Part shown: piece after piece, positions 29,157-33,838 of the stretch
Numbering within the stretch: the stretch's first letter is position 1
Layout of the letters: every line of letters begins with the position of its first letter
From: Sandaracinus sp.
Lineage (GTDB): Bacteria; Myxococcota_A; Polyangia; Polyangiales; Houyiibacteriaceae
Direction: 5' to 3'
DNA: 46,384 nucleotides
Assembly: GCA_002699025.1 (NCBI GenBank)
Contig: PABA01000045.1
Coordinates: 1-46,384 of the forward strand
Notes under the pieces: generated by a model
What the model saw: only the letters and a program-made list of their open reading frames with translations
The model's database searches: none
Told to the model about the DNA's origin: nothing
Translations under genes and position numbers: made by a program

Positions 29157-31676
29157 TCAGACGCGCGCCGCGAGGCCCAGGAAGGTCTCGCTCCGCTCCA
29201 CGTCGCGCACCCAGTCCTCGGGGATGGCGGCGAGGCCGACGCGTGCGCCGACCAGCGCCCCGGCGAGGGTCGCGAGGCTGTCCGAGTCGCCGGGCGTGTT
29301 CGCGGCCTCGAGGAGCGCGGCGCGCGGGTCGTCCGGGTGCCGGGCGACGAGGTAGATGGCGGCGGCGATGGCCTCGTGCGCGGCCCAGCCCTCGAGGCGC
29401 TTCAGCGTCGTCTCCGGGGGCGTGCCGTCCCAGGCCTCGTCGAGGGCGCGGGCCATCATGGCGCCCGTGCGCGGGCTGTGACGGCAGGCGGCGGCGATCA
29501 TCTCGCTGAGCACGGTCGTCACCGGCTCCCCGCGGAGCGTGCGGGCGACGCCCACGGCCATGGCGGCGCAGGCGGCGAGGGCGATCGGGTCGCCGTGCGT
29601 GAGGCGCGAGTGCGCGACGGCCCAGCGCTCGGCGCGCGCGAGGTCGTCGTGGAAGAGGAGGCCGAAGGGGTAGGCGCGCATCACCGAGCCGCAGCCGCCC
29701 GCCTTCGGGCCGCCCGCCTCGTGCCAGGGCACGCCCCGGGCGAGGGCCCGGCAACCGGCGAGGCAGGCGTTGCCCGGCGCGCGGTGCCCGCCCTGGGGGT
29801 GGTCCGCCCAGGCGACGAAGCCCTCCGCGATCTTCGTCATGGCCGCGTCGAGGCCCGCGTCCCGATCGCGCGCCCAGAGGAGCCCGCGGAGGACGACCTC
29901 GGCCATCTGCGTGTCGTCCGTGTAGGGGGCGAAGCGGCGGCCGCCCTTCTCCCACCAGAGCTCGAAGCCGGTCACGCCGCTCGGCGGCCACTTCGCGCGG
30001 AGGCTCTCGAAGCTGCCGACGAACTCCGTCGGGTGGCCGAGCGCGTCGCCGATGGCGGCCCCGAGCACGGCGCCGGCGACGCGGCTCTGCCAGGGGTCCG
30101 CGGCGAGCTCGTCCGGCGTCGGCGCGGCGCTCGGCGGAGCGGCGAGGTCGAAGGTGCCGGAGACGTCGCCGACCACGGCGAGATCGAGGCGATGCCCCGC
30201 CGCCCACGCCTCCCCGCCAGAAGACCCGTGCCCGGAAGACCCGTGCCCGTGCCCGTGCCCGTGCCCCTGCCCGCCGGCAGACGCCCCCGACGAGCCGCTT
30301 TCCGCGAGCGCGCCATCCACGAGCGCACCATCCTCGCCCTCGGCCTCGTCGTCCTCCTCCCAGCCCTCGTCGTCCGCGTCGTCCTCCCCCCAGTCCGCGC
30401 CCTCGTCCTCCAGCCCCTCGTCGCCATCGCCCTCGTCGAGCGCGTCGTCCTCGTCCTCCCAGCCCTCGTCCGCGTCGCCCTCATCGAACGGCGCATCCCC
30501 ATCGAGCGGCGCGCCCTCCTCGAACGGCGCGCCCTCGTCGAGCGGCGCGTCCTCCTCGAGCCCCTCCCCCCAACCCGCGTCCTCGTCCTCCAGGTCCTCC
30601 GGCGGCGCGTCCGCCTCGATGGGCACGTCGTCGAAGACCGGCACCCCCGGCGCGGTCGCCTCCGCACCGGCCGTCTCCGCGCCCACTGTCTCCGCGCCGG
30701 TCGCCGCGGCGCCGTCCGCCTCGTCCCGCTCCTCTTCCACCGCCACGCCCGCGACCGCGGCCGGCTCCTCCTCCGCGCCGCCGTAGCGGCGCACGAAGCG
30801 CTCCCCCACCGCGTCCGGGCAGTGCGGCCCGCGCAGCTCGCGGAGGGTGGCCACCGCCTCGCCCGCCGCCGCGCCGAGCTCCACGAGCACACACGCCGCC
30901 ACCGTGCCCGTGCGCCCCTGGCCGCCGCGCGAGACCAGCACGACCTTCTCCCCGCTTCGCAGCGCCGTGACGACCTCCCGGACGACGCCCCGCGCCGCCT
31001 CCGCGTCGCCCGGCGCCCCCTCGTCCGGGATGGGCAGCTCGAGCACGGGCACCCGCGCCTCGGCCTTCGCGACCAGCTCGCCCACGCCGATGGACTCGAG
31101 CTCCGCGCGCTCCATGAGCACCACCAGCCGCTGCATGCCGAGCTCGTCGATCATGCGCCCGAGGTCGAGCTCCAGCTCGCGATCCCAGCGGGCCCCCGTG
31201 TAGCGCGAGACGTCCCGGCGCCCGGGCGCGTAGGCGAGGCCGAGGTCCCCCGCGAGCCCGGTCTTCAGCCAGCCGACGCGGATGGGGTGCGTGCGCGAGG
31301 TGAGCGCTCCCGGCGCCGTCGGCCGCGGCGGCGCGGCCGGGGCCGCGGCTGCCGGCGTCGCCCCGGAGGCCGGCTCGCGGGCTGCAGTCGGCTCGTGGGC
31401 TGCAGCCGGCTCATCGGAGGGAGTCGGCTCGTTGGAGGGAGTCGCCCCACTCGGCTCGGCGGCGGGCTCGGCGCTCTCGGCCTCGGGGTCGAGCGTCGGC
31501 TCGCTCGCGGCCCCACTCGGTCCGGCGGCGGGCTCGGCGCTCTCGGCCTCGGGGTCGAGCGTCGTCGGCTCGCCCGCGGCTTCGCTCGGCGTCGGCTCGC
31601 TCGGCGTCTCCGCCGCGTCCGCGTCGTCGCCTCCTCCGAAGGCACCCAGGAGGTCCAGCTGGCCGTCGTCGCCCAT
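29157..31676 (-). CDS. Fusion of a pseudo-tyrosine-phosphatase domain and ADP-ribosylglycohydrolase
   Basis: 839 aa. Residues 1-125: Pro/Ala/Glu-rich with repeated LDPEAESAEPAA. Residues about 125-300: a dual-specificity/CDKN3-like phosphatase fold in which the HCxxGxxR loop reads VSRGGQGRT, so catalytic Cys is Ser at about 249 and the preceding His is Val, with Arg 255 kept. Residues about 300-475: very acidic linker ending in a His/Gly run. Residues about 530-839: ADP-ribosylglycohydrolase (DraG/ARH) domain with GAAIGDALGHPTE, YTDDTQM at about 585, GCGSVMRAYPFGLL and NTPGDSDSLA, so metal-binding Asp residues are present. Expected role: removing ADP-ribose from a target, with the dead phosphatase as binding module. 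The ATG is preceded by GATAAG 8 nt upstream. Confidence 0.85.
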   Translation of the reverse strand: MGDDGQLDLLGAFGGGDDADAAETPSEPTPSEAAGEPTTLDPEAESAEPAAGPSGAASEPTLDPEAESAEPAAEPSGATPSNEPTPSDEPAAAHEPTAAREPASGATPAAAAPAAPPRPTAPGALTSRTHPIRVGWLKTGLAGDLGLAYAPGRRDVSRYTGARWDRELELDLGRMIDELGMQRLVVLMERAELESIGVGELVAKAEARVPVLELPIPDEGAPGDAEAARGVVREVVTALRSGEKVVLVSRGGQGRTGTVAACVLVELGAAAGEAVATLRELRGPHCPDAVGERFVRRYGGAEEEPAAVAGVAVEEERDEADGAAATGAETVGAETAGAEATAPGVPVFDDVPIEADAPPEDLEDEDAGWGEGLEEDAPLDEGAPFEEGAPLDGDAPFDEGDADEGWEDEDDALDEGDGDEGLEDEGADWGEDDADDEGWEEDDEAEGEDGALVDGALAESGSSGASAGGQGHGHGHGHGSSGHGSSGGEAWAAGHRLDLAVVGDVSGTFDLAAPPSAAPTPDELAADPWQSRVAGAVLGAAIGDALGHPTEFVGSFESLRAKWPPSGVTGFELWWEKGGRRFAPYTDDTQMAEVVLRGLLWARDRDAGLDAAMTKIAEGFVAWADHPQGGHRAPGNACLAGCRALARGVPWHEAGGPKAGGCGSVMRAYPFGLLFHDDLARAERWAVAHSRLTHGDPIALAACAAMAVGVARTLRGEPVTTVLSEMIAAACRHSPRTGAMMARALDEAWDGTPPETTLKRLEGWAAHEAIAAAIYLVARHPDDPRAALLEAANTPGDSDSLATLAGALVGARVGLAAIPEDWVRDVERSETFLGLAARV

Positions 31677-31822: not shown

Positions 31823-33838
31823 ATGGGCGCTGGCGCAGAGGGGAGGGCGAGGCTCGTACCGTTGCTCGTCGGGCTCTGCGGCCTCGCCTGCACCAGCCCG
31901 GTCGCCGGCCCGCGCCGCCCCCCGCCGCCCCGGACGAGCGGCGGCGCCACGACCGCCCCGCCCCTCGCCGCCGATCCGAGCGCCCCGGACGCGCTCCCCG
32001 CGCTCCGCTCCCCCGCCGACTGGACCGCGCTCGCCTACCGTCCCGCCTACCAGCCCACGGCCCACACGGAGGTCGTGAAGTTCCTGATCGACCTCGAGGA
32101 TCCGAGCGCCGCGCCACCCCCCGCGGGCGCGCTCCCCGGTCGCCTCTACTTCATGAACTCGGCCCGCCACGAGCTCCACTTCACCTTCGCCGAGACCTTC
32201 CTCGACCCGCTCCTCGATCACGCCCGGTTCAACGTCGCCCAGTACCGCCGCCCCGACCGGCGCTTCGTCCTCGGCTCGCTCGTCCACTACCTCGACGCGG
32301 ACGTCTGGGCCTTCGAGATGGTCGCCGGCGACACGCTCGACGCCGAGCGCACGGCCCGCGCCTTCGCCCGCGTGAGGGCCGCCGTCTTCTTCGGCGACGC
32401 GCTCCGCTACCGCCCCCTCTCGCCGCTCCACGCCGCCCACGCCGAGGCCCTCGGGGAGCGCTTGCCGAGCCTCGCGCCGAACGCCCTCCTCGAGGCGACG
32501 CGCTACCAGCCGCTCGTCCCCGGCGTGGCCTACGGCGTGCTCCGCCGCGTGACCGGCGAGCTCGACGTGGCCGAGGTCCGCCCGAACGACCTCCTCGTCA
32601 CCGCGCGCGTCCCCGGCGAGCTCCCGCCCGTCGCCGGCCTCGTGACCAGCGCGCTCCAGGCGCCCCTCGCGCACGTGGCCATCCTCTGCCGGAACCGTGG
32701 CACACCCGACATGGCCCTCCGCGGCGCCATCGACGACCCGCGCCTGATCGCCCTCGAGGGGCGCCTCGTCCGCCTCGAGGTCGGGCCCCAGGAGTTCCGC
32801 GTGGAGGAGGCGACCCGCGAGGAGGCCGAGGCGCACTGGGCCGCGCGCCGGCCGGCGCAGGCCTTCGCGCCCGAGGTCGACGAGAGCGTGCGCGCCCTCC
32901 GGCCGGTCTGCGAGCTGCGCCTGGACGACGTCGCCTTCGCGGGGGCCAAGGCGGCGCAGCTCGGCGAGGTCTGCGCGCTCGAGAGCGTCGAGACGCCGGG
33001 CGGCTTCGTCGTGCCCTTCCACCACTACCGGCAGCACCTCCGACGCCACGGCGTGCGGAGCGACATCGAGGCCATGCTCGTCGACGCCGCCTTCCGCGCC
33101 GACCGCCGCGCCCGCGCCGAGCGCCTGACCGAGGTCCGCGCGCGCATCGAGGGGACGCCCGTCGACCCGGCCCTGGTGCGGGAGGTGCACGGGCGCATCC
33201 GGGGGAGCGGGCGGCGCTGGATCTTCCGCTCGAGCACCAACGCCGAGGACCTGGTCGGCTTCAACGGCGCCGGCCTCTACCGGAGCGTGATCGTCGATCC
33301 GGCGGCGGGGCCCGAGGCCGTCGCGGACGCCCTCCGCGAGGTCTGGGCGAGCGTCTGGCTCCAGCGCGGCTTCGAGGAGCGCGAGTGGTTCCGCATCGAC
33401 CCGGAGCCGGTGTCCATGGCCGTGCTCGTGCAGCCCTTCGTCGACGACGTGATCGCGACGGGCGTGGCCATCACGGCGAACCCCTACGACGCGCTGCGGC
33501 CCGGCGTGCTGGTGAACGTGCAGGCGGCCGGAGGGAGCGTGACCGGGGCCGAGGGGGACGAGATCCCCGAGCAGGTGCTCATCTACACCTGGGCCGAGGA
33601 CCTCGAGTTCGAGGTGCTCAGCCGGAGCTCGCGCACCGAGGGCGCGGCGTTGATGCGCGAGGCCGATCTGCGGCGCGTGGGCGGCGTGCTCCAGCGGCTC
33701 CACGAGGAGCTCGTGCCCCTCTACGGGGCGGGGGCGAACGCCGTCGACGCGGAGCTCCTGCTGACGCGCGACCACCGGGTGGTGATCGTCCAGGCGCGGC
33801 CCATCGACGTGCGCTGGACGGAGGGGCAGCGCGGCTGA
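31823..33838 (+). CDS. Predicted lipoprotein with PEP-utilizer swivel and PPDK-type ATP-grasp domains
   Basis: 671 aa. N-terminus MGAGAEGRARLVPLLVGLCGLACTS has a basic n-region, short hydrophobic core and lipobox LAC at about residue 23, then a Pro-rich linker. Residues about 60-245: unassigned domain with aromatic patches. Residues about 250-330: phosphohistidine swivel domain with LAHVAILCRNRGTPDMAL (His 284). Residues about 365-665: PPDK N-terminal ATP-grasp with FAGAKAAQLGEV (Lys 376), TPGGFVVPF, FRSSTNAEDLVGFNGAG, MAVLVQPFVDD and VVIVQARPID. Swivel-before-ATP-grasp is the order in glucan water dikinases rather than PEP synthase. Such enzymes use ATP, so a lipoprotein signal is odd. Alternatively the N-terminus is a non-cleaved anchor with the enzyme in the cytoplasm. 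Confidence 0.82.
   Translation: MGAGAEGRARLVPLLVGLCGLACTSPVAGPRRPPPPRTSGGATTAPPLAADPSAPDALPALRSPADWTALAYRPAYQPTAHTEVVKFLIDLEDPSAAPPPAGALPGRLYFMNSARHELHFTFAETFLDPLLDHARFNVAQYRRPDRRFVLGSLVHYLDADVWAFEMVAGDTLDAERTARAFARVRAAVFFGDALRYRPLSPLHAAHAEALGERLPSLAPNALLEATRYQPLVPGVAYGVLRRVTGELDVAEVRPNDLLVTARVPGELPPVAGLVTSALQAPLAHVAILCRNRGTPDMALRGAIDDPRLIALEGRLVRLEVGPQEFRVEEATREEAEAHWAARRPAQAFAPEVDESVRALRPVCELRLDDVAFAGAKAAQLGEVCALESVETPGGFVVPFHHYRQHLRRHGVRSDIEAMLVDAAFRADRRARAERLTEVRARIEGTPVDPALVREVHGRIRGSGRRWIFRSSTNAEDLVGFNGAGLYRSVIVDPAAGPEAVADALREVWASVWLQRGFEEREWFRIDPEPVSMAVLVQPFVDDVIATGVAITANPYDALRPGVLVNVQAAGGSVTGAEGDEIPEQVLIYTWAEDLEFEVLSRSSRTEGAALMREADLRRVGGVLQRLHEELVPLYGAGANAVDAELLLTRDHRVVIVQARPIDVRWTEGQRG

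Follow-up and report, generated by a model that had tools for sequence, protein, structure and literature searches.

The whole 46,384-nucleotide stretch of DNA that we analysed (the window) contains a gene on its minus strand (29157..31676) that, judged by its open reading frame and Pfam matches, fuses a pseudophosphatase to an ADP-ribosylhydrolase (ARH) and that runs uninterrupted from ATG to stop over 839 codons. The phosphatase-ARH fusion is itself already known (PMC9503650) and the dead phosphatase is the unusual part; in the open-access literature that we searched, we found no description of an ARH joined to such a phosphatase. On balance, we favour a reading in which the ARH still works and its phosphatase partner has died and is eroding, with a residual role in binding or as a scaffold possible. 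We base this on the two folds, the lost catalytic residues, the ARH ligands, a series of decay among orthologues and a relaxed rate of change in one pair of dead homologues, as read from sequence and models.

Domain order and the ADP-ribosylhydrolase

The 839-residue protein comprises a disordered stretch (residues 1-120), a phosphatase fold (residues 126-300; 30777..31301), a second disordered stretch (residues 303-507; 30156..30770) and the ARH domain (residues 527-839; 29160..30098). The first-pass annotation of this DNA had given the N-terminal half to the phosphatase; the fold is present, but the roughly 120 residues ahead of it (31317..31676) form an Ala/Pro/Glu-rich extension with tandem repeats and a pLDDT below 50, and the phosphatase is therefore not the entire N-terminal half.

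The ARH had been described as having its metal-binding motifs intact, and this is borne out. Residues 535-821 match ADP_ribosyl_GH (PF03747; E 2.4e-62) over positions 1-287 of the 287 in the profile, and the motifs are all in place: PTEF (549) with its conserved Glu, the metal-binding TDDT (residues 586-589; 29910..29921) within YTDDTQM, and the metal-binding GDSDS (residues 796-800; 29277..29291). The nearest solved relatives of this DraG-type domain are DraG and MJ1187 (2woe and 1t5j); in both of them the ARH domain is complete and the metal-binding motifs correspond (MJ1187: GDTDS, DraG: GDADT, in the place of GDSDS). The alignment of the window ARH to MJ1187 runs throughout, and that to DraG falls into two pieces. 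They differ in being single-domain proteins, whereas the window ARH is fused to a phosphatase. On these motifs the C-terminal ARH looks active, and it would remove ADP-ribose from macromolecules. A different ARH in the window genome is fused to an inositol-monophosphatase-family domain (contig C80, L001:628-2460).

The linker between the two domains is acidic (73 Asp and Glu as opposed to two Lys and Arg among residues 302-524, 223 in all) and is built from DNA repeats of 15, 18, 24, 30 and 36 bases. Its HGHGHGHG run (residues 472-479; 30240..30263) is encoded by an array of the GGGCAC hexanucleotide. The linker had been put at about 170 residues, which is too short, as the confidently disordered stretch (pLDDT below 50) covers about 205. 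The linkers of the orthologues vary in composition and length (G035: Ser/Ala repeats, G054: SPAV repeats, G179: SDPE repeats, G044: a short acidic stretch), so that the repeats which make up the linker and its His run are specific to the lineage and their composition is not conserved. The suggestion that the linker may bind metal or DNA-binding proteins, the latter as a DNA mimic, is therefore unsupported, and we reject a conserved function of the acidic or His-rich sequence. A spacer that originated by slippage is a sufficient explanation.

A phosphatase fold that has lost its catalytic cysteine

Residues 178-275 match three Pfam families from the DSP/rhodanese-phosphatase group, each above its cut-off (PTP-SAK: 1.2e-8, Tc-R-P: 1.7e-8, CDKN3: 1.8e-6), and an AlphaFold model of the phosphatase domain alone has a pLDDT of 93. 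The nearest solved fold to this model is human KAP/CDKN3 (1fpz, 1fq1), with a VIA-align Z of 23.9 over 168 residues at 27% identity (the next folds score about 20) and a Foldseek value of 8.9e-13. The dual-specificity phosphatase fold proposed in the first-pass annotation is thus confirmed both by family search and by predicted structure. KAP differs from the window protein in being an active Cys phosphatase that has no ARH.

The signature loop of the window domain is degenerate: VSRGGQGRTG (residues 248-257; 30906..30935) stands in place of HCxxGxGRxG. Codons 247-250 read CTG GTC TCG CGC and give L-V-S-R, so that the catalytic Cys is replaced by Ser and the His before it by Val, as had been noted from the sequence, and of the catalytic HCx5R signature VSRGGQGR retains only the Arg. 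In an alignment of 34 sequences, the window domain keeps the general-acid Asp218 of its acid loop (PIPDEGAP; IPDEGAP is residues 216-222, 31011..31031), the loop Arg255 and the loop glycines, and it is missing the near-invariant Gln past the last helix (the Q-loop Gln). All 33 of the more distant homologues aligned from genome contigs have HC (in two of them, where the domain is only partly covered, the loop was left uncounted in a first listing) and the window alone has VS. The dead domain is 44-45% identical to the active ones. Among the orthologues, two congeneric genomes of another family also have a dead loop, VSREGMGRAG (G044) and ISREGMGRAG (G182), and here the Asp of the acid loop is absent as well (PIVPEGAP and PVAPEDAP).

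Members of this phosphatase superfamily require the Cys as their thiolate nucleophile. This requirement makes it very improbable that catalysis persists in the window domain with Ser249 or some other nucleophile; the retention of Asp218 and Arg255 would suit such an enzyme, but the Q-loop Gln is gone from the window and the acid-loop Asp from G044 and G182. We therefore regard the VSRGGQGRTG domain as a pseudophosphatase that has probably lost its phosphatase activity. An error of sequencing or assembly is a conceivable source of the Ser in a draft genome of 238 contigs. However, several independent base changes separate CAC TGC from GTC TCG, which a single read error cannot explain, the frame is intact, and the orthologues from two other genomes read VS or IS; we reject this explanation as having next to no chance of being correct.

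In kind, though not by descent, the domain resembles the STYX-type pseudophosphatases, which combine a dual-specificity phosphatase fold with a replaced catalytic Cys and a retained loop Arg. MK-STYX and STYX share with the window the replacement of the HC of HCx5R (MK-STYX: Phe-Ser, window: Val-Ser) and the loop Arg; they differ in being eukaryotic, in having no ARH fusion and in their independent origin.

Other dead phosphatases occur in these bacteria. On contig C51 of the window genome, an ARPP-1 domain is fused to a second dead phosphatase with the loop VSRHGRERAG (L093:7991-9514), and in a genome of the same family (G011) ARPP-1 is fused to an active one with HCRGGLGRAG (L094:10217-11698). 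G050 and G081 each have a stand-alone dead phosphatase, with the loop VARSLGGRAS and a DUF6508 N-terminus, beside an active phosphatase-ARH fusion (L092:11312-12361 and, on the reverse strand, L101:2097-3239). Since there are several such homologues, each with the loop Arg, dead versions are recurrent in these bacteria. The VARSLGGRAS protein is nearly invariant between G050 and G081, with one nonsynonymous difference to 40 synonymous ones; constraint as strong as this means that such pseudophosphatases can be fully functional, and it counts against the reading of decay.

What stands in front of the ARH in the orthologues

The ARH domain was used as the query in a search of 184 genomes of the order, 318 of the class and 379 of the phylum. 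Its orthogroup (58-73% identity) is separated from paralogues at 50% or less, and 16 ARH sequences, 60-73% identical, form one group in the tree, with support values of 99/95 and 100/100. An active HC phosphatase precedes the orthologous ARH in five genomes (G090, G091, G087, G050 and G081). The question raised with the first-pass annotation, whether Cys is absent in all orthologues, consequently has a divided answer: it is absent in the window, G044 and G182 and present in these five. Three more orthologues have phosphatase remnants without the loop (G178, G035 and G054), and a Pfam scan of the first two found no phosphatase match. In G103, the N-terminal part is low-complexity sequence only and there is no phosphatase domain, in G514 nothing occupies the N-terminal slot, and in G209 a bactofilin is fused to the orthologous ARH instead of the phosphatase (L149:328-2022). 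A genome from another class of the phylum (G380) has a macrodomain fused to a closely related ARH (L155:1483-3069). The ARH is 66-68% identical in these macrodomain and bactofilin fusions, which thus share it with the window and differ in what fills the slot.

The orthologues of this one enzyme therefore form a series that starts with an active phosphatase, passes through a pseudophosphatase without the Cys and ends in an eroded relic or a replacement. On the phosphatase tree, VS may have arisen once or several times, and a single clade of all non-active ARH sequences is mildly rejected by an AU test (p=0.034). The ancestor would have had an active KAP/PTP-SAK-like phosphatase ahead of the ARH, probably processing the phosphate groups of released ADP-ribose as has been proposed (PMC9503650). 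In the window lineage, loss of the catalytic Cys and the preceding His would have turned it into a pseudophosphatase and removed the phosphatase step, with the ARH presumably going on to strip ADP-ribose from macromolecules. The dead domain would then have come under relaxed constraint, dispensable over the orthogroup as a whole, and sister lineages would have lost it completely by erosion or have something else in its stead. The series bears on the published proposal, since here the ARH has survived without the phosphatase.

Rates of change are consistent with this course. Between G044 and G182, the one dead pair on which the test rests and which lies outside the window's own lineage, the phosphatase has 18 nonsynonymous to 27 synonymous codons and the ARH 7 to 41 (p=0.009); the corresponding dN/dS values (NG86, from a routine that is experimental) are about 0.22 and 0.05, the phosphatase changing about four times faster. 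Two active pairs, which differ from each other, show no such excess when pooled (phosphatase: 9 to 54, ARH: 25 to 90, p=0.32), and the codon differences of dead and active phosphatases differ at p=0.003. The dead domain is therefore less constrained than the active ones, yet well below neutrality. Between the window and G044, a segment around the loop, picked after inspection, is identical at 13 of 17 positions compared with 50 of 142 in the remaining domain (p=0.0014). Given this and the features that the window domain shares with active ones (44-45% identity, Asp218, Arg255 and the loop glycines), erosion is not far advanced in the window; the better-kept loop would fit a binding pocket that has been retained and may have some role.

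The most serious alternative to decay is that the dead phosphatase has been selected as a reader, in which the Ser loop and the Arg would act as a natural substrate trap for a phosphorylated or ADP-ribosyl group and so bring the ARH to its target, by analogy with MK-STYX and STYX. Several observations would suit such a role: it is Ser, and not just any residue, that stands in place of the Cys in four proteins (window, G044, G182 and the window genome's ARPP-fused paralogue); the loop Arg is kept in all four dead types, VARSLGGRAS included; the loop is the better-conserved part of the domain; the nearest folds are KAP structures in which the catalytic Cys140 is substituted and one with phospho-CDK2; and MK-STYX, with its change of HC to FS (PMC8269279), provides a precedent. 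However, the loop has been lost from three orthologues (G178, G035 and G054) and the phosphatase is missing from two more (G103 and G209) in which the ARH is conserved, so reading cannot be essential to the ARH, and the relaxed rate in G044/G182 and the missing Q-loop Gln of the window also speak against it. We consider a selected reader to be a minority possibility, though one to be taken seriously. The binding or targeting role put forward in the first-pass annotation thus survives in part, as the Cys loss is common to G044 and G182 and the loop is kept better than the rest, but it is not general. Under the decay that we prefer, the dead domain, which keeps its fold and its phosphate-binding Arg, could at most bind or scaffold, and some residual ligand binding may persist.

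Known fusions, gene neighbours and a clamp-like peptide

Iyer et al. (2022; PMC9503650, section 3.8) described ARG domains coupled to rhodanese-phosphatase (R-P) domains, in one polypeptide or in adjacent genes, in the company of regulators (WYL or Nudix), chaperones, ARPP and nucleases. They proposed that the phosphatase processes the ADP-ribose once it is released and that these systems defend against ADP-ribosyltransferases (ARTs) of phages. The window protein likewise joins the two domain types in one polypeptide, an ARG and an R-P domain with no coupled ART. It differs in the loss of the catalytic Cys, in its long disordered linker and in having no adjoining WYL or Nudix regulator, chaperone or effector gene. 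We think it unlikely that the protein belongs to such a defence. Its architecture matches the published fusions and ARPP-1 is fused to another dead phosphatase elsewhere in the genome, but a scan of the seven flanking genes found no WYL, Nudix, chaperone, REase, ART or ARPP (ARPP occurs only on another contig), and no neighbouring gene was found that the window shares with the loci of the orthologues. The neighbours are an arginine decarboxylase, a glycosyltransferase, a lipoprotein-like PPDK_N gene, an Fe-S assembly gene and an acyl-CoA carboxylase; the PPDK_N gene (31823-33838) has its pyruvate phosphate dikinase ATP-binding domain after a lipoprotein-like signal sequence (LACTS).

A query with the full-length protein over genome contigs gave no match, its patterns lying mostly in the linker and the termini. 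The same two domains, with HC intact and no long linker, are found on Cereibacter and Leisingera plasmids and in 23 full-length proteins from genome-contig loci. On a Leisingera plasmid (L007), the genes around the fusion encode a WYL-domain protein, an AAA ATPase and a PD-(D/E)XK nuclease, a setting like that of the ARG-centred systems in the literature.

The window protein starts MGDDGQLDLLG, and this N-terminal peptide, MGDDGQLDLLGAF, is a candidate DnaN ligand. Its QLDLL (residues 6-10; 31647..31661) fits four of the five positions of the bacterial clamp-binding motif QL(S/D)LF (PMC9690074; also given as QLxLF, PMC4549789), the last being Leu and not Phe. QL[SD]LL is present near the start of every 5'-complete orthologue of G044's family (QLDLL: G044 and G182, QLSLL: G178, G035 and G054), and G209 has QLELS and G103 has PLDLF. 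The active phosphatase-ARH fusions have no such N-terminal peptide, QL[SD]LL being restricted to the decayed lineage. The pattern QL[SDENT]L[LF] occurs seven times in 475 predicted ORFs (176,127 amino acids), and all four N-terminal occurrences are these orthologues, in a set that was drawn from the loci of this study and is hence not an independent sample. An ImuB-like frame in the window genome carries QATLF.

We treat the peptide as a lead. Together with the disordered stretches, it suggests that the enzyme is tethered, perhaps to the clamp. In its full form, the proposal is that the decayed lineage is a client of the replication clamp, in which QL[SD]LL would bind DnaN, the disordered segments would tether the eraser to replicating DNA, and ADP-ribosylation of DNA or of fork proteins would be reversed, the dead phosphatase being a leftover spacer or a docking module; we hold this to be rather improbable as a whole. 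Should the peptide bind the sliding clamp, ADP-ribose removal would be linked to DNA replication in bacteria.

Active dual-specificity phosphatase domains also occur in other proteins. One recurrent fusion joins an ABC-type ATPase to such a domain (HCxAGLGRTG and similar) at its C-terminus (L045, L046, L054, L061, L062 and L037), and two copies are in the window genome (L045 and L046, on contigs C227 and C233). In a Myxococcales MAG, an active domain is followed by about 370 residues without any Pfam match (L015:4977-6665), and in G044 a single 981-residue frame combines isochorismatase, TCAD9 and an active dual-specificity phosphatase (L095:9606-12548).
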